Translations under genes and position numbers: made by a program
The notes under the pieces: model-generated
The model's database searches: none
Told to the model about the DNA's origin: nothing
What the model saw: only the letters and a program-made list of their open reading frames with translations
Shown here: positions 6,859-46,276 of the stretch, piece by piece
Numbering within the stretch: position 1 is the stretch's first letter
Layout: every line of letters starts with the position of its first letter
DNA from: Sutcliffiella horikoshii
Lineage (GTDB): Bacteria; Bacillota; Bacilli; Bacillales; Bacillaceae_I
DNA length: 64,000 nt
Assembly: GCF_002157855.1 (NCBI RefSeq)
Contig: NZ_CP020880.1
Span: 2,852,001-2,916,000 of the forward strand
Reading direction: 5' to 3'

Positions 6859-7908
6859 TTAAAGGATGGTTCCTGAAAACTGTGGCATTTGTACAGTAAT
6901 GGATTGAATTTTTTCTCCATCAATATCCACTGCCCACAATTTATAATTCGGTTTCCCCCTCAACCAACTCTGATCCTGGATAAACAATACCCTCTCCTTG
7001 TCGCGGAAAAATACCGGTTCTGTAATCAACGTACGAAAGCTTGTAAGAGGTTGTACTTCTTTCCCACTCGTGCTCATTGTGTACATTTCATAAATGAATT
7101 GCGACTTCTCACGAGGATTTTCGCTTGCAGCAGAAAACGCAATGAGATCACCAGTTGGAGAGAGTTTTCCACTATATATTATATTTGTATTAAAATCCGG
7201 GTTTACGTAGTCTTTCTCCATAGTCTTAGTGTCCATCACGATATAAGAAGAATGAAGGCCTTTTTCTTCCTCTTTGCTCCACTCCACATAGCCAAGTTTC
7301 CCCCCGTCTCCTGTTAGTGAGAGGCTCCGCTTTTTTAAACTTTCATCATGAGTCAGCCTTTCCTTTTTATCTCCTGTTATAGAAATAGAGTACAAATCAA
7401 TGTTAGTTGGACCTTCCTCCATTTCATTACCTTCCTGATAATCCTTTGCAGCTAAATAATAGATGGATTGATCGTCTTGCGAAAAAATAGCATCCGTTAT
7501 TAGTTCATTCTCTTTCGAAAGGCGGGTGAGTTCACTTCCATCGCTGTTCATTATGTAAAGTGATCTAGTTAATGTGTTCTCTCCCTTTTCTTGCGATAAA
7601 AACAGGATCTTATCCCCTTTGGATGAATAGCGAGGATGCACATGGCTTTCTTCCTGCCTTGGGTAAGTTAGTTGATTAACATTGCTGCCATCCACATTTG
7701 CTTTATAGAGCGCTCCATCCCCACTTTGGTAAAATGGAAAAACAATAGACTTGTCATCAGGTGACAAGGTAACGGTTTCCCCGAATCCATTATCAATAGG
7801 AAGCCACGAGCGAGTAAATCGTTCTGAGAAGAAATATAAAAGGACGGATATGATGATGACAAATCCTATTAGGGAGATGGTGAATAGTTTCAATGTTTGT
7901 TTTTTCAT
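6859..7908 (-). CDS. TolB-like beta-propeller protein, membrane anchored
   Basis: 349 residues with an N-terminal membrane anchor (about 10-28) and an extracytoplasmic WD40-like/PD40 propeller. The repeated blade signature is seen as VTLSPDDKSIVFP, HPRYSSKGDKILFLSQ, MNSDGSELTRLS, DAIFSQDDQSIYYLA and GKLSPTGDLIAFSA. In Gram-positive bacteria such TolB-like proteins usually bind other proteins or sugars outside the cell; there is no Tol system here, so TolB function should not be inferred. AGAGG precedes the ATG. It is a single gene convergent with the small stress gene. Confidence 0.8.
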   Translation of the reverse strand: MKKQTLKLFTISLIGFVIIISVLLYFFSERFTRSWLPIDNGFGETVTLSPDDKSIVFPFYQSGDGALYKANVDGSNVNQLTYPRQEESHVHPRYSSKGDKILFLSQEKGENTLTRSLYIMNSDGSELTRLSKENELITDAIFSQDDQSIYYLAAKDYQEGNEMEEGPTNIDLYSISITGDKKERLTHDESLKKRSLSLTGDGGKLGYVEWSKEEEKGLHSSYIVMDTKTMEKDYVNPDFNTNIIYSGKLSPTGDLIAFSAASENPREKSQFIYEMYTMSTSGKEVQPLTSFRTLITEPVFFRDKERVLFIQDQSWLRGKPNYKLWAVDIDGEKIQSITVQMPQFSGTIL

Positions 7909-34082: not shown

Positions 34083-36209
34083 CTATTTCTTCATCTCGTC
34101 TTTCACCTTCAAAAGCCTCAAACTATTTAACGTCACAAGCAGTGTTGCCCCCATATCAGCGAAGATCGCAATCCATAAGGTGAGCCAGCCCGGAATCACG
34201 AGCAATAGCGCCAAAACTTTCAGCCCCAATGAGAATCCAATATTCTGCTTAATGATAGTTAGTGCTTTTCGGCTCAGTCTGATGGTGAATGGAAGCTTTC
34301 GCAAGTCATCTCCCATCAATGCTACATCAGCTGTTTCAAGTGCGGTATCTGTTCCCGCTCCTCCCATCGCAACTCCTACCGAGGAAGCTGCAAGGGCAGG
34401 TGCATCATTAATACCGTCCCCCACCATCATCATGCTACCGTGTTTTTCACGTAGTTCTTTAATATAACGAAGCTTATCTTCCGGCAGCAGACTGGATTTA
34501 ACATGGTCTATCTCTACTTCGTGTCCAATTGCTTCTGCTGTTCTATCGTTATCTCCTGTCAGCATATATAAGTTAGAAATGCCTATCTCCCTCAAATTCT
34601 TCACACTGGAAGCACTAGAATCTCTTATCTCATCACGGATTCCAAGGACACCAAAAATCTTTTCAGAAGTCCCGACTACAATTACTGTTTTTCCTGCATT
34701 CTGTAATTGATGGATGCTTTCGGCCAGCCCCTCTATTTCCGGATGCTTTTGACCCAAGAACCAATTCGGACTTCCTGCTTGATAAAGAATACCATTAATG
34801 GACCCCTTTATCCCTTTACCCGCAATAGATTCAAAATGCTCCATGGTATAACCCGTATCAGCTACCCCAACCTCTTCCGCTTTCTGAAGAATGGCTGAAG
34901 CTAACGGATGAGTGGAACCACCTTCAAGTGTCGCAATGATTTTTAGCAGCTCTTCTTCTGTTAAGTAAAAGGCATGAACATCTGTTACTTCTGGCGCTCC
35001 TCGAGTTAAGGTCCCAGTCTTATCAAAGGCTATCGCTTTGATTCGACCCACCTCCTCAAGGAAAACCCCACCCTTGATCAGAACTCCATTTCGAGCAGCA
35101 TTTCCTATTGCTGTTACAATGGCTATCGGAGTGGAAATAACAAGTGCACATGGGCACCCTACCACGAGAACCGCTAGGCCTTGATAGATCCAAGTGTTCC
35201 AGTCCAATCCCATAAATAATGGAGGGACTGTGGCTACTAGAAAAGCTATTATAATAATTAGCGGAGTATAATATTTTGCGAACTTATCCACAAACGCTTG
35301 GGAAGGTGCCCTTTCCGCTTGAGCCTCTTCAACTAGATGAATGATTTTGGAAATGGTTGTATCCTCTACCCGTTTGGTGACTTCCACTTCCAACAGTCCA
35401 TCTTCATTAAAGGTCCCTGCAAAAACCTCATCATTCACGCATTTGGATACAGGAATACTCTCCCCTGTAATCGCAGCTTCACTGATGGATGCTCCACCTT
35501 TCACAATGTTGCCATCCATTGCAATTTTTTGTCCAGGCTTTACGAGCATCCGGTCGCCGATTTTAACATCTTTGACAGATATCAGTTTTTCAGTTCCTTC
35601 TATTAAAATAGTCGCCTGTTTTGGAGAAACATTCATTAGCGACCTAATTGAAGCTCGGGCCTTTTCCATCGAATAAGATTCCAGAGCTTCGCTGATTGCA
35701 AAAAGAATGACGACAGTGGCACCCTCGCCCCACTCACCGATAATCGCAGCACCGATGATGGCAATTGTCATGAGGGTCTTCATATCAAATTGAAGCCTAA
35801 TTAGATTATTGATTCCAGTGAAGAACAGTCTATACCCGCCTATTACAATGGAAGCAGCGAAAAGAATAATAGTAGATATATGCTCTTCACCTTGCTGAAA
35901 GAAAGCAATCCAGCCTGCAACGAGAAAAACGAACGAGAGAAGTACGGTTGCATGTTTTTTGTAAAAAGGAATCGACGGCTCTTCCGGTAGTTCCTCTTGT
36001 TCGGAAGAGACCTTTAATTTGTCAAATGCCCCTGCCTTTTCAATATCACCTACGCTTACAGCTCCACTTACTGAAATCTTAGATGCACCAAAGTTAACTC
36101 GTGCATCCGTTACGCCCTCTATCTTTTTTACATTATTCTCAAATTTTTGTGCGCAGTTTGCACAAGTTAATCCTTGGATACGGTAAGTTTGTTCCTCTTT
36201 ATTTTTCAC
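34083..36209 (-). CDS. cadA: Cadmium/zinc/cobalt-exporting P1B-type ATPase CadA
   Basis: 708-residue metal-exporting ATPase. One N-terminal HMA domain ([12 protein letters not shown]), six or more membrane segments, the ion-binding CPC in [11 protein letters not shown], phosphorylation motif [13 protein letters not shown] motif ([10 protein letters not shown]) and [16 protein letters not shown] plus the HMA pattern fits Cd/Zn/Pb specificity rather than copper. The GTG start at 36209 lies inside the end of the cadC gene (11-bp overlap), after AGAGGTGA. Exports metal from the cytosol; expression governed by the adjacent CadC. Confidence 0.95.
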
Positions 36210-36594
36210 GTGTCTTCACCTCTTTTTGATGGGTAAAGGCGATATCGATCAATTGTCTGACATGATCATCATCTAATGAGTAATAAACAAGCTTTCCTTC
36301 CTTTCTGAACTTTGCCAACCCGAGATCCCTTAACAATCTAAGGTGATGAGAAGCCGTTGCGACAGTGGAATCAGTAATTGTTGCAACGTCATGCACGCAG
36401 AGCTCCTTGGCTAAATTTAACGCCTGGGCTATTTTCAACCTCGTGGGATCAGACAACGCTCGGTAAATCTTTGCCACATCATTTGTCATCGTTTCATCTA
36501 TTTGTTTCTTCACGTTTTTCACTTTTGTTTCATTTGCACATTCTTCCTGACACTGTTGTTCGGTCAAAACCTCTGAACTAGATTTGGTGGACAT
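36199..36594 (-). CDS. cadC: ArsR/SmtB family metal sensor CadC
   Basis: 131-residue winged-helix repressor; the ATG at 36594 has AAAGGGGA seven bases before it. The N-terminal arm has a Cys pair ([10 protein letters not shown]) and the helix preceding the DNA-reading helix has [10 protein letters not shown]. In staphylococcal CadC this is ELCVCD; here the second cysteine is replaced by His, which might alter metal preference. The recognition region is [15 protein letters not shown] with [12 protein letters not shown] wing. Overlaps cadA. A palindromic operator is directly upstream. Confidence 0.9.
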
Positions 36595-36611
36595 AATAGA
36601 CTCCCCTTTAT

Positions 36612-36635
36612 ATTCAAACATTCATTTGAATATTA
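36612..36635. promoter_or_regulatory. CadC operator, palindromic
   Basis: ATATTCAAA, a six-base centre CATTCA and TTTGAATAT form a perfect 9-bp inverted repeat 17 bases upstream of the cadC start codon, the typical ArsR/CadC operator sequence. It overlaps the expected promoter. Confidence 0.8.
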
Positions 36636-36679
36636 GTATATGCCACCCTAGCTAAAATAGTCAATACATTCAACACAGT

Positions 36680-37546
36680 TTAAATAAGATAAAACAAAAA
36701 TCCTGAAATGGTTGACATACTTATGACAGAAATGACAAACGCCGCCACAAGTTTTTTCTTAAAAATGCTATTTAATAATGCGACTTCAGGCAGACTCGCT
36801 CCTGCTGAACTAATGAGCAATGCCATTACAGGCCCCAAAGCCATTCCTTTAGCAATCATCATTTGAGATATGGGAATCATGGTAGAAAGTCTGATGTACA
36901 AAGGAATCCCAATAATTGCAGCGACCGGTACGAGCCACCAGTTGTCTCCTCCTAAATATTGTGTAATGAAAGATGTTGGTACTGCGCCATGTATAATAGC
37001 CCCAATGGCTGCACCGATTAACAAGAATGGATAAACAGTCTTTATTAACGTCAGTGTTTCTGCCACAGATTGTTTAAGATTAAGTCCTTTATTCTCAGGT
37101 TGATAGTTCTTCAACAAGACATTCTTTAATTGCTTTTCAAACCCCAGTTTTTCCAAAGACAGGCCTATTAAAATAGAAAGAACTGTTGTGGTTAGGGTGT
37201 ATATTAAAGCTACCTTCCAGCCAAGCATAGCTGTCATAATAGTTAGGATGGTCGGATCCAATACAGGTGATGCAAAAAGGAATACCATCACAATCCCAAA
37301 TGGCACCTTCTTTCTCAGTAAAGTGACTACCATGGGGATGGTCGAGCAAGAACAGAATGGGGTTATAAAAGCGAATAATACTGCGAACAACGCACTTAGA
37401 AGCGTATTTCCCTTGTTCAGCCACTTCTCCATTTTATGAAACGGAACAACAGACTGAATGATAGAAACCAGAAAGGTAATAAGAACGAACAAGACGGTTA
37501 ACTCGATAGCAATGTACAAAAAGCTTGAAATTATTTCTCTCCACAT
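36680..37546 (-). CDS. Permease of the UPF0718/YraQ family
   Basis: 288 residues, from the ATG at 37546 (AGGAGT seven bases upstream). Eight or so membrane segments in two halves. The repeat signature is FITPFCSCSTIPMVVTLLRK in the first half and SSAGASLPEVALLNS in the second, as in the UPF0718/ArsP-like permeases. Related proteins export organoarsenicals or other small compounds; the substrate here is unknown. The cysteines in FCSCST could bind metal or arsenic. A MarR-type gene lies upstream with a terminator between; a shared operator-like site is in front of both. Confidence 0.85.
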   Translation of the reverse strand: MWREIISSFLYIAIELTVLFVLITFLVSIIQSVVPFHKMEKWLNKGNTLLSALFAVLFAFITPFCSCSTIPMVVTLLRKKVPFGIVMVFLFASPVLDPTILTIMTAMLGWKVALIYTLTTTVLSILIGLSLEKLGFEKQLKNVLLKNYQPENKGLNLKQSVAETLTLIKTVYPFLLIGAAIGAIIHGAVPTSFITQYLGGDNWWLVPVAAIIGIPLYIRLSTMIPISQMMIAKGMALGPVMALLISSAGASLPEVALLNSIFKKKLVAAFVISVISMSTISGFLFYLI

Positions 37547-37567
37547 AAAGACCACTCCTATTTTTTA

Positions 37568-41098: not shown

Positions 41099-41179
41099 GT
41101 ATTAAATTCAATTCTTTTTTGGTATCTAATGTGCGTAAACCCATGCTGAAAAAGATTAAAACCTTTTAAAAGTACAAAA

Positions 41180-41203
41180 GAGCAAGCGTCTTCACGCTTA
41201 CTC
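41180..41203 (-). terminator. Terminator of the arsenic operon
   Basis: GAGCAAGCGT/ACGCTTACTC stem (one mismatch) with a short loop; the minus-strand transcript continues into TTTTG. It lies 12 bases past the HesB-like stop and closes the ars operon. Confidence 0.75.
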
Positions 41204-41214
41204 TTCTCCTAAGT

Positions 41215-41502
41215 TTAACAACAATCGCTGTCCTTCAACCCTAACAGAACAAGCCCTTTTCCTTGCGGAGTTTCTTGAACATCCAGGACTAGATCGGTTG
41301 TCATGCTTTCGATTTTCGGATCGATTGCTACCTTTATAGTATTTAATGTTTCCACTTTATCATCTGCTTTTGCCTCATCCAGAGACAATCCTAATTGTGG
41401 GCTTCCTCAGCCCCAGCCTGCAAAGTAGACACGAATGTTGCTTGCCCCGTTTTCGCGCAGGATATCACTCAATACGTCTCTTGCTTCATTTGAAACCTTC
41501 AC
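41215..41502 (-). CDS. HesB/IscA-like protein with in-frame TGA: candidate selenoprotein or pseudogene
   Basis: Ninety-five codons from GTG at 41502 (AGGTGA six bases upstream) to TAA at 41215, interrupted only by TGA at 41409-41407, codon 32. Before it: YFAGWG; after it: GSPQLGLSLDEA, so the TGA sits exactly where A-type iron-sulfur carriers (HesB/IscA) have their first conserved Cys. The C-terminus is LKDSDCC, a Cys pair typical of this group. No other defect is present, which favours recoding as selenocysteine over decay. A hairpin 18 bases beyond the TGA has SECIS-like geometry. It is the last gene of arsRBCDA plus phosphatase. Without selA/B/C/D elsewhere in the genome it would be a truncated pseudogene. 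Confidence 0.62.
41370..41388 (-). promoter_or_regulatory. SECIS-like hairpin after the in-frame TGA
   Basis: On the transcript, TTGTCTC pairs with GAGGCAA (one G-U) around the loop TGGAT. The loop is 25 bases from the TGA; bacterial SECIS elements usually place a G-containing apical loop 16 to 37 bases downstream. The match is structural and read by eye; short hairpins are common, so this alone is weak. Confidence 0.4.
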
Positions 41503-41551
41503 GGCCAGTCACCTGCCTTCTTATTAGTTTTTCTAAATGCTCGTTTCATTC

Positions 41552-41980
41552 TTAGTTTTTTTCGTACATGTTTTGCAGCACTTCTTTTAATTCGGGCTTC
41601 ACATTAATTGCAGGACGGATGGAAGTTGCTAGTCTTTCTGCTTCTTCCACCGTACTAGCTTTCCCCAAGTGAAGAAGGGTACCCATGGCAACCGTTCCGG
41701 TTCTGTTACGCCCTCCAGAGCAATGGAAATACACTTTCTTTCCTTCTTGTTGAGCTTGTACTACGTATTCAATAGCTGCTTTCACCGATTCATCCTGTTT
41801 GGCTGCATCATCCACGATTGGCATATGAATTCTAGGAAGGTTGTCTTCCACGTTATCCGTTTCAGCCCGCAAGTCTATAATAACATCCAAGCCTTCATTT
41901 GTATGTGCATCTTTTACTTGATCGGCACCGCCAATAAAGACATTTTCCATTAGTGATTGATATTTTTTTTCGTTAGTCAT
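41552..41980 (-). CDS. Cysteine-based protein phosphatase (dual-specificity/PTP-like)
   Basis: About 142 residues from the ATG at 41980 with AGGAG nine bases upstream. The PTP loop HCSGGRNRTG shows the catalytic C-x5-R followed by T, and MPIVDDAAKQDE is the general-acid Asp loop region. It resembles small DSP-like phosphatases and the DUF442/beta-lactamase-hydrolase-like group. No membrane segment. It directly follows arsA (13 bases between) in the arsenic operon. A role in arsenic handling (for example on an arsenate- or phosphate-type substrate) is inference only. Confidence 0.82.
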   Translation of the reverse strand: MTNEKKYQSLMENVFIGGADQVKDAHTNEGLDVIIDLRAETDNVEDNLPRIHMPIVDDAAKQDESVKAAIEYVVQAQQEGKKVYFHCSGGRNRTGTVAMGTLLHLGKASTVEEAERLATSIRPAINVKPELKEVLQNMYEKN

Positions 41981-41993
41981 TTTCATTCACTCC

Positions 41994-43736
41994 TTACAAC
42001 AGATTCTCTTTTTCCCACGGCAGAATGGCGCATTTTTCTTTCGTGGACTTTACTCTTTGTATCCACGGTAGTTCATGTTTCCCCCTGCCTGATAAAACTC
42101 GGTCTGTTGTTTCTGTATTAGCAAAGCTTTGGTTGATGATCCACCAACGCGGAGTTATGGAAGCACGCTCAAGGTCAGCATGTAATCTTTCCGCCTCCAG
42201 TACAGGGGTTGCTTCCGGCAAGGTAACGATAAGTACTGCTGTTTCATCGGCATTACGAAGACGTGGAAGCAGATTTTGTACTTCTTTTGACACCTCACCC
42301 GTTGAACGCAATAATTCCTTTTGATAGGACTGGGCTGCGTCAAGCAATAGCAGAGTATGGCCTGTAGGCGCAGTATCGATGATGACCACTTCCTCATCGG
42401 CCTGACCAACTATCTTGGCAAACTTCTGGAATACTGCTATCTCTTCGGTACAAGGTGAGTTTAGATCTTCCTCAAGGTATGCAAGCTGCTCCTCGCTCAG
42501 CCCCTCTCCCGATTGTTCCAAAACATGCTTTTTATATGATTCTACTTCCGCCTTAGGGTCCACCTTACTGATTGTTAAATGGTTTCTTCTTGTTTTATCT
42601 TTTAAAGCATACTCCAAATGCGCAGCAGGATCCGTTGTCGTGAGATGGACTTTCACATCTTTTTCTGCCAGCTTCATTGCCAGTTTGGCTGCTAGTGTTG
42701 TTTTACCAACGCCACCCTTCCCCATTGTAAAAATTACACGAAGATTATGGTTTATAACATCACTTACCAATTGATTAAAATCAGCAAGTTCCGTAATTAT
42801 GTCAGGGTTTACATGATTCGTTTGCTCAACTTGTAACCTTTCTCCGTTAAACCAAGCCTTTAACGGGCTGATACCCGTTAAGGAATACGAAATATAAGGA
42901 AGATACGTCATGGGAATATCGTTAAATGTTCTAACGGCAACTTCCATTGCTTTCTGTTGCTTATCGTAAAAAGCCATGGATACCTCGTCGTTAATGATCG
43001 GCTTCTCCATTAGCCCATTGACAATAAGTTGCTGATTATGAAGGCCAATTTCACGCAACTCCTTAGAGGCACGCGCAGCTTCCAGGATTGGCGATTCATC
43101 TGGACGTGTTACCAAAAGTAACTGAGTTTGGGAAGGATCAGACAATGCATTCACTGTCTGTTCATACAATTCCTTTTTTGCCCCTAGTCCTGAAAGAGGT
43201 CCTAAACAGGATGCTCCATGTGTGCTCTCCTCTAGGAAATTGTTCCAAGCTGAAGGTAAGGATAGCAGCCTTAATGTATGCCCGGTTGGAGCTGTATCAA
43301 ACACAATCACATCATATTGCCCAGTGATCTCTTTTTGTGTTAGTAAAGTGGAGAATTGGTCAAAGGCTGCAATCTCAACCGTACATGCTCCTGATAATTG
43401 TTCTTCCATGGTAGCCAAAACCGCATCAGGAAGTTTTCCTTTATAAGGACCAATCACACTTTCTCTATAATCTCTCGCCGCTTCCTCTGGATCAAGATTA
43501 CAGGCGAAAAGTCCTTTTACACCTGGTACTTCTGAAATATCGTTTGTCAATTCTGTTTCAAACACATCTTGTAGATTGGAGGCTGGATCTGTGCTGACTA
43601 TTAACACCTTCTTGCCTTCTTCGGCAAGAGCAATGGAAGTGGCACAAGCTGTGGAAGTTTTACCAACGCCACCTTTACCTGTAAAAAATAGATATGGTGT
43701 TTGAATATTTGTTTTTGGTTGGAATGATGGGAGCAT
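41994..43736 (-). CDS. arsA: Arsenical pump-driving ATPase ArsA
   Basis: 580-residue soluble ATPase that energises ArsB for arsenite/antimonite export. Two homologous halves, each with a deviant Walker A (FTGKGGVGKTSTACA; MGKGGVGKTTLAAK) and the signature DTAPTGHTL(R/L)LL. Metalloid-binding cysteines lie in SGACTVEIAAF, ASCLGPLSGLG and NSPCTEEIAVF, so all three canonical sites are present. It follows arsD by 12 bases, as usual for arsRDABC-type operons with chaperone. Confidence 0.95.
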   Translation of the reverse strand: MLPSFQPKTNIQTPYLFFTGKGGVGKTSTACATSIALAEEGKKVLIVSTDPASNLQDVFETELTNDISEVPGVKGLFACNLDPEEAARDYRESVIGPYKGKLPDAVLATMEEQLSGACTVEIAAFDQFSTLLTQKEITGQYDVIVFDTAPTGHTLRLLSLPSAWNNFLEESTHGASCLGPLSGLGAKKELYEQTVNALSDPSQTQLLLVTRPDESPILEAARASKELREIGLHNQQLIVNGLMEKPIINDEVSMAFYDKQQKAMEVAVRTFNDIPMTYLPYISYSLTGISPLKAWFNGERLQVEQTNHVNPDIITELADFNQLVSDVINHNLRVIFTMGKGGVGKTTLAAKLAMKLAEKDVKVHLTTTDPAAHLEYALKDKTRRNHLTISKVDPKAEVESYKKHVLEQSGEGLSEEQLAYLEEDLNSPCTEEIAVFQKFAKIVGQADEEVVIIDTAPTGHTLLLLDAAQSYQKELLRSTGEVSKEVQNLLPRLRNADETAVLIVTLPEATPVLEAERLHADLERASITPRWWIINQSFANTETTDRVLSGRGKHELPWIQRVKSTKEKCAILPWEKENLL

Positions 43737-43748
43737 AATGCCGCCCTC

Positions 43749-44117
43749 CTAGTTGATTGAGTTTAGTGTAATGTTGAGTTTCTTTTTGGGTTTTTCATGA
43801 GCCAATTCTTGTACATTTACACCTGTCCATTCAGCAAATTCCTCATTTGTTGGGTAATCTTCCATCTTAACCACTTCGCCATCTACTATAATAACTGGAA
43901 GGCATTCCGGCCCTTTTTCCATTAGCAGTTCATTCACCTTTTGATTCGTTACAAACGGTTCTGGATCTGAGCCTAAATTGTAGCGGGAAATGTCCATTCC
44001 TTTTTGTTGTAAGGAAAATACAGCACTTGCCACTCTTGTTAGTTCCGGATCCACACTTGGCCCACATACGCCAGTTGCACAACACATTGCCGGGTCAAAA
44101 ATTTCAATTTTAGCCAT
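43749..44117 (-). CDS. arsD: Arsenite metallochaperone ArsD
   Basis: 122 residues. The metalloid-binding cysteines are C12, C13 and C18 in PAMCCATGVCGPSVDPEL. The thioredoxin-like fold follows, with LPVIIVDGEVVKMEDYPTNE. ArsD delivers As(III) or Sb(III) to ArsA and raises pump affinity. It lies between arsC and arsA, so the operon order is R-B-C-D-A. C-terminal vicinal Cys pairs of the R773 protein are absent. Confidence 0.94.
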   Translation of the reverse strand: MAKIEIFDPAMCCATGVCGPSVDPELTRVASAVFSLQQKGMDISRYNLGSDPEPFVTNQKVNELLMEKGPECLPVIIVDGEVVKMEDYPTNEEFAEWTGVNVQELAHEKPKKKLNITLNSIN

Positions 44118-44176: not shown

Positions 44177-44596
44177 TTATTTTCCAGTTTCAGCAAATGT
44201 TTTGATGCGGTCGCCGATTTCGTCGCGTACTCGTTGGAAGAACTTCCACTTCTCTTCTTCTGTTCCTTCCGCTTTGGCAGGATCATCAAAGCCCCAGTGT
44301 ACTCTCTCTTTGTTTGGGGGTGTTGCTGGGCATACATCTGCTGCATGACCGCAAAGTGTTACGACTAGGTCTGCTTTTTTCAAGATTTCAGGATCAATCA
44401 TGTCAGAAGTTTGGTTGGTGATATCCACGTCCACTTCGTTCATAGCTTTTACTGCGTTTGGGTTTACGCCGTGTGCTTCAATACCTGCTGAGTATACGTC
44501 CCACTCGTCGCTTAAATATTTTTTCCCCCAGCCTTCTGCCATTTGGCTGCGGCAAGAGTTACCTGTGCATAGGAAGTAGATTGTTTTTTTAGTCAT
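44177..44596 (-). CDS. arsC: Arsenate reductase ArsC (thioredoxin-dependent)
   Basis: 139 residues; low-molecular-weight PTPase fold. The nucleophile is C10 in [15 protein letters not shown] with R16, and the relay pair is the cysteines in [15 protein letters not shown]. The C-terminal [14 protein letters not shown] is typical. It reduces arsenate to arsenite for ArsB. Very similar to B. subtilis ArsC. Separated from arsB by 27 bases and arsD by 59. Confidence 0.96.
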
Positions 44597-44623: not shown

Positions 44624-45925
44624 TTAACCAATTATTAAAAGCCAGAAATAGAGGCCTAATAGCGTGATGAATAGAGTTGGGATAGTTAGGATGATACCTA
44701 CTTTGAAGTAGTATCCCCAACTTATCTTTACTCCTTTAAGGCTTAAAACGTGTAGCCATAGTAGTGTTGCCAAGGAACCGATTGGTGTGATTTTTGGACC
44801 AAGGTCAGATCCGATAACATTGGCATAGATTAACGCTTCCCGGATGGTTCCGGTGGTAGCTGTGTCTTTGATTGCAAGTGCATCAATCATGACAGTCGGC
44901 ATGTTATTCATAAAAGATGAAAGGATGGCTGCAATGAATCCCATAGACATCGTTGCAACGAAAAGTCCTTCATCAGCTGCCATTTGGATGACATCTGTAA
45001 GCAGGTTTGTTAATCCTACATTTCTTAGTCCATATACGACTACATACATTCCAATTGAAAAGAATACGATGGCCCAAGGAGCGCCTTTTAATATCTGTTT
45101 CGTATGAATGACCGGGCTGTTTCTGCTTATTAATAGAAAGATGATAGCAACAGTGGCTGCAATGAACGAAACAGGAATACCGGCAAATTCACTTGCGAAG
45201 TATCCTATTAGAAGGGCCGCAAGTACAATCCATGATAAGTTGAAAAGTTTCACATCTTTAATCGCTTCTCTAGGTGCCTTCAATACGGACATATCATAAT
45301 TTTCTGGAATGCTCTTTCTAAAGAATAAGTAAAGTACAACAATACTAGCACCAAGTGCAAAGAAATTTGGAACAATCATTCTAGATGCATATTCCACAAA
45401 TCCTATTTCAAAGAAATCAGCTGATACGATATTTACCAAGTTACTTACCACTAATGGTAGTGAGGTAGTATCTGCAATAAATCCACTTGCCATAATAAAC
45501 GGCAATATCATTTTTTCTTTAAACTGTAAATTTCTCACCATTGCCAGAACAATCGGTGTTAAAATAAGTGCCGCTCCGTCATTAGCAAAGAATGCAGCTA
45601 CCACCGCTCCTAGCAAGGTGATATAGATGAACATCCTCACACCGCTTCCTTTAGCAAATCGGGCCATGTGCAAGGCCGACCATTCAAAGAAGCCTACTTC
45701 ATCTAGTATGAGGGAAATGATGATGAGGGCCACAAACGTTAACGTCGCATTCCAAACGATGCCTGTTACATCTATTACGTCTGTAAAGGTAACAACTCCA
45801 AAGAGTAATGCCAGTAGAGCTCCCCCACAAGCTGACCAACCAATGGACAGTCCTTTAGGCTGCCAGATAACAAATATTAATGTTAGTAAAAAAATCACAG
45901 ATGCCAAAATAATATCCAGCAACAA
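44624..45925 (-). CDS. arsB: Arsenite efflux transporter ArsB
   Basis: 433-residue inner-membrane carrier with about 12 membrane segments, exporting arsenite/antimonite with ArsA or by proton motive force. Family patterns: [53 protein letters not shown]. The single conserved Cys of ArsB is in a membrane position ([13 protein letters not shown]). A TTG start follows AAGGGGGG in the gap after arsR. Confidence 0.94.
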
Positions 45926-45934
45926 AATCCCCCC

Positions 45935-46276
45935 TTAACAACAAGTAATTCTAAGTCCTTTTTGCTCTAACTCTTTCATCTTTTCTTCTAGTGAAGGAAC
46001 ATGCACAAGAATCGATGTGATTAATTGGTAGTGTGGATGTTCTGTATTGATGGAATACATGATCCATTGACCTTTTCTAGATTCTTTCACTAGACCAACT
46101 TCTTTTAACTTCTTTACATGCTGACTGATAGAAGGCTGGCTCATCTGGAATATCTCAACAAACTCACACACACAGCAATCGTGATCTTGTAGAAGAGCCA
46201 GCATGGAAAGCCTCGTTTTATCGCTTAAAATTTTCAACGTGGCTGCCGCTTCCTCCATTTTCAATACCTGTTGCAT
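45935..46276 (-). CDS. arsR: Arsenic-responsive repressor ArsR
   Basis: 113-residue ArsR/SmtB winged-helix repressor. The arsenite-binding motif is DHDCCVCEFVEIF at the recognition-adjacent helix; SQPSISQHVKKLKEVGLV is the DNA-reading region and a C-terminal ITCC adds another Cys pair. The ATG is six bases from AGGTG. First gene of the operon arsR-B-C-D-A-phosphatase-HesB; binds upstream repeats until As(III) is present. Confidence 0.94.
   Translation of the reverse strand: MQQVLKMEEAAATLKILSDKTRLSMLALLQDHDCCVCEFVEIFQMSQPSISQHVKKLKEVGLVKESRKGQWIMYSINTEHPHYQLITSILVHVPSLEEKMKELEQKGLRITCC

Follow-up and report, generated by a model that had tools for sequence, protein, structure and literature searches.

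The window, by which is meant the whole 64,000-nucleotide stretch of Sutcliffiella horikoshii DNA that was analysed, contains a set of same-strand ars genes named by profile. They lie on the minus strand and begin with arsR, an ArsR/SmtB-type repressor and the first operon gene (45935..46276; NF033788, 93.3 bits), followed by arsB, an arsenite efflux pump (44624..45925; TIGR00935, 761.8 bits), arsC, a thioredoxin-type arsenate reductase (44177..44596; TIGR02691, 236.7 bits), arsD, an arsenite metallochaperone in which the CCATGVC motif is present (43749..44117; NF033727, 137.9 bits), and arsA, an arsenical pump-driving ATPase (41994..43736; TIGR04291, 809.5 bits). Next on this strand is a gene for a dual-specificity phosphatase (DSP) family protein (41552..41986; PF00782, 48.7 bits), the family of the DSP gene that stands beside hesB in the ars1 operon of Bacillus CDB3 (PMC4562236, in part), and 49 nt separate its stop from the start of a hesB-like gene (41215..41502, minus strand). 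A preliminary description of this DNA had attached the HesB-like gene to arsRBCDA, and the attachment is borne out, with the phosphatase gene lying between arsA and hesB. A terminator-like hairpin located by a consensus scan (41176..41207, minus strand; 14 pairs, a loop of 4 and a T-rich tail) starts 7 nt past the hesB stop. Because hesB shares the strand of the arsR-B-C-D-A-phosphatase genes upstream and is followed by the terminator, it is, by layout, the probable last gene of a seven-gene ars operon that ends there. A promoter scan of the region gave 13 promoter-like sites against 14.1 ± 3.8 in shuffles, which is no excess, and the promoter was not located. The window also holds a second metal block (34083-37555, minus strand) made up of frames for a CadA-like P-type ATPase (34083-36209), an ArsR-like protein and a permease, all named by eye; relatives of this permease frame also adjoin many ars-hesB loci.

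The hesB-like gene encodes 95 amino acids when its in-frame TGA is read as selenocysteine (Sec), runs from a GTG start to a TAA stop (41217-41215, minus strand), and has a ribosome site, AGGTGA (41509..41514, minus strand, read from sequence), 6 nt before the start. The minus-strand translation is VKVSNEARDVLSDILRENGASNIRVYFAGWG*GSPQLGL...DSDCC*, with a single internal TGA at codon 32 (41407..41409); with this codon read as Sec (U) and the GTG shown as M, the product is MKVSNEARDVLSDILRENGASNIRVYFAGWGUGSPQLGLSLDEAKADDKVETLNTIKVAIDPKIESMTTDLVLDVQETPQGKGLVLLGLKDSDCC, which carries GWGUGSP around the Sec and ends in DCC. The plus-strand reading of 41215-41502 is interrupted by stops. The frame of 95 codons with a good start, stop, ribosome site and one TGA that had been described earlier holds in all of these elements; its strand, which had been left unstated, is the minus strand, and the sequences given as flanking the TGA, YFAGWG and GSPQLGL, match the minus-strand translation. 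The placing of the TGA at the first conserved Cys of the A-type Fe-S carriers likewise agrees with a profile alignment, in which the codon-32 column is Cys in AQ_1857 (1nwb), HI1723 (2apn) and IscA (1s98), and with the many homologues that have Cys there.

The codon-32 TGA is shared by 11 of 16 same-genus genomes, the remaining 5 being without such a gene, and the TGA form is found in 107 of the 142 distinct proteins of the family. Within the genus, dN/dS is 0.15 for codons 2-31 and 0.09 for codons 33-95. Recurrence of the same site in 11 of 16 genomes, together with the low dN/dS after the TGA, indicates by sequence comparison that the position of the TGA is not due to chance. Exchange of Cys and Sec at this position, which the preliminary description had proposed to look for, is seen among the homologues, and TGA homologues are present in other organisms. 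The best tree of the 142 distinct proteins contains four Sec/Cys changes, two of which are forced by well-supported branches, the tree having been made by a quick method on 93 columns and being poorly resolved, with a long-branch warning. A pair of Cys proteins (L118, L121) from genomes lacking selA is placed among the ars-linked Sec proteins in this poorly resolved tree.

The genome has the full bacterial machinery for Sec insertion, and selA, selB, selD and a tRNA-Sec (selC), for which a search had been suggested, are all found. The tRNA-Sec scores 57.5 bits against an Rfam cut-off of 47 and is called SeC, anticodon tca, by ARAGORN, and selA (562.5 bits), selB (361 bits) and selD (410.1 bits) each lie above the curated cut-off. 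The search for relatives gave 102 matches at E 1e-9 or better, of which 80 were fetched with flanks and constitute the first set; the remaining 22 entered the selA table only, with the place of the TGA unchecked. selA accompanies the TGA-type hesB in every one of 52 genomes (own genome counted; 5 of the 52, G104, G143, G159, G172 and G197, rest solely on a place-unchecked match) and is present in 4 of 35 genomes with only non-TGA forms of hesB and in 43 of 112 genomes without hesB. The association has a Fisher p of 1.5e-19 when kinship is ignored. One match with a TAA, in G098, was set aside from the table, which covers 199 genomes. selB is present in 99 of the 199 genomes, as is selA. Two other frames of the own genome bear on selenium use. 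A Rdx/SelW-type frame (MSNFKVSIEFCMQU...; Rdx, 81.9 bits) with one in-frame TGA lies between selD and selA (L018:2614-2853) and is a probable second selenoprotein, and selD itself (L018 1501-2427 minus; G000:C1:2065086-2066012) contains one in-frame TGA, so SelD is probably a selenoprotein as well. The TGA in selD and the SelW-type frame with its CMQU suggest that the Sec trait is used elsewhere in this genome.

A bacterial SECIS hairpin is predicted at 41370..41388 (minus strand; 19 nt), with a 7-bp stem in which 41388-41382 pair with 41376-41370 and a loop, UGGAU, that lies 26-30 nt after the TGA. The published bSECIS model requires a loop of 3-9 nt, a stem of 4-16 bp, a G in the first two loop positions, a spacing of 16-37 nt and an MFE of -7.5 kcal/mol or lower (PMC13188914, in part). 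The hairpin has a loop of 5 nt with G at loop position 2, a stem of 7 bp and a spacing of 25 nt, and its MFE is within the limit at -7.5 kcal/mol for 19 nt, which is borderline, and -8.2 kcal/mol for 25 nt. The hairpin with a G-bearing loop 25 bases past the TGA to which the preliminary description had pointed is thus real and conforms to the bacterial SECIS model against which a check had been advised; it is further marked by covariation. All 49 Sec members in the first set have the same hairpin at the same distance from the TGA, with small departures in some. Over 43 distinct rows, the share of stem cells that pair is 95.3%, compared with 85.3% for shuffles and 26.9-53.8% for slid controls; the covariation score is 0.305 against 0.131 ± 0.016 in shuffles, is equalled by none of 500 shuffles and exceeds all six slid controls. 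Changes on both sides occur in 28 cells, a number reached by 0 of 500 shuffles. Of the five measures taken in this count, the two weaker ones are the three of seven pairs that show two-sided changes, matched by 49 of 500 shuffles, and the seven further pair types in the stem, matched by 21 of 500.

A second, overlapping set shows 6-7 of the 7 pairs in 57 of 58 distinct sequence windows. Among non-Sec homologues, at least 5 of 7 pairs form in 2 of 41 and at most 4 in 39 of 41 (41 of 43 records, placed by motif search and including duplicates), and the loop letters are identical in 3 of the 41 controls. All 49 Sec members use CTG for the Leu codon at +9, vs 2 of 30 Cys members, and the third position of codon +11 is G in 49 of 49 vs 5 of 30, the record L120, whose position was misread, being left out of the 30. 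The isolated hairpin has an energy z of -3.1 to -3.7. The energy of the 48-nt region, a candidate line of evidence, is no better than that of synonymous recoding in the genus (z between -0.5 and 0.2), and the 49-nt fold gives a z of 0.03. Across the family the mean z of the 48-nt energy vs synonymous recoding is -1.31 for 49 Sec members and -0.21 for 31 non-Sec members (Mann-Whitney p 0.0004), the latter including the misread L120. The regional energy was dropped as SECIS evidence because same-genus copies lie near z 0, and the support for a SECIS comes from covariation, from invariance and from the hairpin taken in isolation. Searched against the own genome, the SECIS model R1 finds solely hesB (E 6.2e-17; next best E 0.4) and so does not detect other selenoprotein genes.

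A recent nonsense mutation or a sequencing error, which would make hesB a dead gene and which had been offered as the alternative to a selenoprotein, is excluded, as is a pseudogene, by conservation of the TGA in independent genomes, by selection downstream of it and by the SECIS. Losses of this kind do occur, TAA replacing TGA in one relative, but an identical TGA in every one of the 11 same-genus copies and in 107 family proteins, the purifying selection that follows it, the full Sec machinery and the covarying SECIS leave this alternative virtually no probability. We regard it as almost certain, from these comparisons of sequence, that the hesB product is a genuine selenoprotein. The relative with TAA at the Sec TGA site is L148 (Bacillus sp. 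V3-13, 7094-7096); its SECIS-like hairpin is intact, and the TAA is either a recent loss or a sequencing error.

The best NCBIfam match of the window protein is TIGR01911, HesB_rel_seleno (E 4.5e-15), with a score of 56 bits (U entered as C) vs a curated cut-off of 66.35, and all 42 members of alignment A2 match both TIGR01911 and NF038090, IscA_HesB_Se (best A2 member E 5.1e-17 with TIGR01911); NF041239 (CC/Se motif) matched 1 of 42. The protein resembles the HesB-like selenoprotein family in having Sec in G-x-G-U and differs from it in having UGSP for UGGP and a short, exact Cys-Cys-COOH tail. The family motif UxGP (table of PMC13188914, in part) is replaced by UGSP in the window protein and 10 other same-genus proteins, and UGGP is found in many relatives, ars-linked ones (L065, L092, L179) included. 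An AlphaFold2 model of the product has a mean pLDDT of 89.6, and its best PDB matches include IscA chains and SufA (1x0g, 1r94, 1s98 and 2d2a_A, with TM 0.72-0.80 for the better chains), which gives the protein a predicted IscA-like fold; tail residues 93-95 have pLDDT below 50. The likeness to IscA/SufA/ErpA consists of the fold and the position of the first Cys, but the window protein scores below every curated cut-off of that group (ErpA, 25 vs 117 bits; IscA, 13 vs 151). A-type carriers have the three-Cys pattern C-x(63-65)-C-x-C, in which the second and third ligands form a C-x-C about 64-66 residues on from the first. In the window protein Sec stands at the first ligand and a terminal Cys-Cys, with no residue between the two, takes the place of the C-x-C pair, so that Sec32, Cys94 and Cys95 are its sole Cys/Sec residues.

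The Cys-Cys-COOH end is present in 68 of 68 ars-linked Sec records (20/20 and 48/48 from two overlapping sets) and in 24 of 29 unlinked Sec loci of the first set. The two Jeotgalibacillus ars-operon copies (L189, which has the same protein as L089, and L205) are without the CC tail as well as the codon-32 ligand, a double loss that is, by sequence comparison, a coupled one. The coupling is not strict, since L122, a Cys form not located near ars genes, lacks a terminal Cys yet retains the one at codon 32. The ArsD of the window operon shows a CC...C set. The role of ArsD in arsenite handling is established.

A locus was counted as ars-linked when a gene for one or more of ArsA, ArsB, ArsC, ArsD and the phosphatase lay within about 7 kb on the same strand. 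The operon order is identical in all 11 same-genus loci, the phosphatase gene being followed by hesB. In the first set (80 loci of the 102 matches), 43 of 80 are ars-linked, comprising 20 Sec, 22 Cys and 1 Glu form, and 29 of the 37 unlinked loci are Sec. A scan of named genomes, taking the best 80 of 113, gave 61 ars-linked loci, 48 of them Sec, in Sutcliffiella, Cytobacillus, Mesobacillus (M. selenatarsenatis included), Neobacillus, Peribacillus, Rossellomorea, Robertmurraya, Aquibacillus and other genera. The TAA record L148 counts there as ars-linked but not Sec and is left out of later counts and of the tree. Both sets are from Bacillales and overlap, L189 and L089 for instance sharing a protein, and their records are related, so that the counts are not of independent events; they do place the gene on the same strand near ars genes across genera. 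Within the genus, hesB and arsD are both present in 11 of 16 genomes and both absent from 5, and 2 of these 5 keep selA, one of the two being G011, which is 80% complete. Within the genus, hesB tracks arsD and not selA.

Relatives outside the class, where 36 of 40 carry the TGA, have none of ArsA, ArsB, ArsC, ArsD or the phosphatase in their flanks (0 of 40, within about 5-6 kb on each side, less at contig ends), a further point of difference between them and the window member. This sample comprises 40 of 41 matches fetched, from 39 genomes, and includes three records with unclear hesB frames (L241, L251, L256) in which ars genes were still sought; an ArsR-like match was seen in the flanks of L245 and CadA-like matches in those of L239 and L249. 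On the sequences compared, an older stand-alone family seems to have become tied to ars genes in Bacillales, since ArsA-D and the phosphatase are absent near all 40 relatives. The same count and the 29 Sec forms among 37 unlinked loci indicate that the HesB-like family also has some function apart from ars genes. Among 14 of these 37 loci whose neighbours were compared, no single context is common to all, and partial contexts are shared by L099/L130 (two genes), L067/L071 (downstream genes) and L067/L077 (one gene). Three stand-alone Sec copies (L074, L079, L105) lie 56-86 nt behind a similar same-strand upstream gene of 313-318 aa, 36-64% identical among them, which by eye resembles a membrane dipeptidase and is a possible second genomic context. 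On plasmid pBO1 of Cytobacillus oceanisediminis 2691 (L220) the order is arsR-B-C-D-A-trxB-phosphatase and then the Sec gene, which, being on a plasmid, is fully readable only in hosts with Sec machinery. Bacillus-like ars operons also occur in L160, L164, L172 and L191, records titled Bacteroidetes, Pseudomonas, Sphingomonas and Paenibacillus, and are probably due to contamination, mislabelling or recent transfer.

Both halves of this arrangement have precedents. HesB-like selenoproteins have been catalogued since 2005-2006 (PMC1242214, PMC1794560, both in part), which agrees with the earlier statement that they are known from other bacteria, and a 2016 survey listed 90 of them in 86 organisms (PMC5029168, in part). 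Mutagenesis and 75Se labelling served to identify the HesB-like selenoprotein of Methanococcus maripaludis, whose function was described as not clear (PMC11097638, in part). The ars1 operon of Bacillus sp. CDB3, arsRYCDATorf7orf8, includes a HesB-like Orf7 (PMC4562236, in part; PMC5481582), encoded beside the dual-specificity phosphatase gene (PMC4562236, in part), and a HesB-like gene in an ars operon has also been named in Exiguobacterium (PMC8779447, in part). Orf7 and the window protein are alike as HesB-like products of ars operons with arsD, arsA and a dual-specificity phosphatase gene; they are set apart by description, Orf7 being described simply as HesB-like and assumed here to be a Cys form, whereas codon 32 of the window gene is read as Sec. 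The term seleno is absent from the available part of PMC4562236, and the word stem arsen from the available part of the main text of PMC1794560. The novelty that the preliminary description had seen in a Sec-containing A-type protein in an ars operon accordingly narrows to the combination, as HesB-like ars genes and HesB-like selenoproteins were each known; searches of open-access articles turned up no description of the Sec form of HesB within an ars operon. What appears new against that literature is the frequency of Sec-type HesB, complete with conserved SECIS and Cys-Cys-COOH end, in ars operons of Bacillaceae. In the SAO system, a metal-binding role of Sec as ligand has been proposed for SaoB, SaoC and other proteins, and SaoC is named with Cys-Cys-COOH and the motif CU (PMC13188914, in part). 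SaoC, compared here alongside selenoprotein ArsC/ArsM forms, resembles the window protein in the Cys-Cys-COOH end and in Sec as a proposed metal ligand; the matches that the window protein gives with E of 1 or less do not include the SaoC model (NF040734), and SAO genes are absent from the identified genes of the window operon.

The layout suggests that a promoter at arsR would transcribe arsR-B-C-D-A-phosphatase-hesB as one unit to the terminator, and comparative sequence shows SelB and Sec-tRNA to read the codon-32 TGA as Sec under the direction of the downstream hairpin. The product is a 95-residue protein of predicted IscA/HesB-type fold with three soft ligands, Sec32, Cys94 and Cys95. The operon position and this ligand set, which is like the CC...C set of ArsD, are the grounds for proposing an arsenite site, in which the selenol and two thiols may bind As(III) in a three-coordinate manner resembling the Cys-Cys...Cys set of ArsD, and the protein may either sequester As(III) or hand it to ArsD/ArsA for efflux. 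On this account, the protein would descend from an old stand-alone HesB-like selenoprotein recruited into Bacillales ars operons. We consider the chain as a whole, with Sec32 and the CC tail as a three-coordinate As(III) site and a role as trap or chaperone, to have slightly better than an even chance. The more specific reading, of a selenium-based As(III) metallochaperone or trap recruited in Bacillales whose Sec32 and Cys-Cys would form a high-affinity arsenite site feeding ArsD/ArsA, is put forward tentatively, with odds somewhat short of even.

Three other functions were weighed against this arsenite site. The protein might be an A-type Fe-S factor, using Sec to ligate the cluster, that carries or repairs clusters harmed by arsenite or by redox stress from the metalloid, its place in the operon serving to protect Fe-S enzymes; the IscA/SufA fold of the model, the alignment of codon 32 with the first cluster Cys and the match of 29 of 42 family members to Pfam Fe-S_biosyn all speak for such a role. 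The window protein itself, however, fails to reach Fe-S_biosyn, the second and third A-type ligands are replaced by the terminal Cys-Cys, and a second match in the genome (G000:C1:3560028-3560276; 26% identical, in a 121-aa frame) is probably an ordinary A-type carrier, which together make the role unlikely. Quite unlikely is a redox role, with Sec and Cys-Cys acting as a selenol-disulfide reductant that would, for example, recycle ArsC or reduce an arsenic thiol adduct, with thioredoxin reductase as donor. It would suit the thioredoxin-coupled type of the window ArsC and the position of trxB between arsA and the phosphatase gene on pBO1, and most uncharacterized selenoproteins are thought to be redox-active (PMC13188914, in part); but the window protein has no UxxC/CxxU motif, its predicted fold is IscA-like and not thioredoxin-like, and its operon is without trxB. 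The protein could also be a sensor or buffer of selenium-arsenic interplay, scavenging As-Se adducts or reporting selenium status, with arsenic binding incidental. The Sec forms outside ars operons in the first set fit such a sensor, yet Cys forms occupy the same operon position in genomes without selA (G123/L063, G127/L081), where selenium would be dispensable for the role of the gene, and we hold this explanation to be very improbable.

If the proposed As(III) site is correct, some arsenic operons would be selenium-dependent, with resistance partly tied to the supply of selenium, and the handling of metal(loid)s would offer a general lead on what HesB-like selenoproteins do. The tie to ars genes is wide, lineage-specific and found in culturable bacteria, and it gives a selenoprotein family of unclear function a testable role. 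These ars-hesB bacteria are mostly aerobes. The family also falls into an annotation gap, as several of the Cys forms carry the name adhesin or iron-sulfur protein and the Sec gene of pBO1 is unlisted; the pBO1 gene table, known to be incomplete, has nothing at this gene and lists the seven ars-operon genes that precede it. The name adhesin, apparently mistaken, is given to Cys-type relatives on Priestia plasmids, NZ_CP086209.1 among them.
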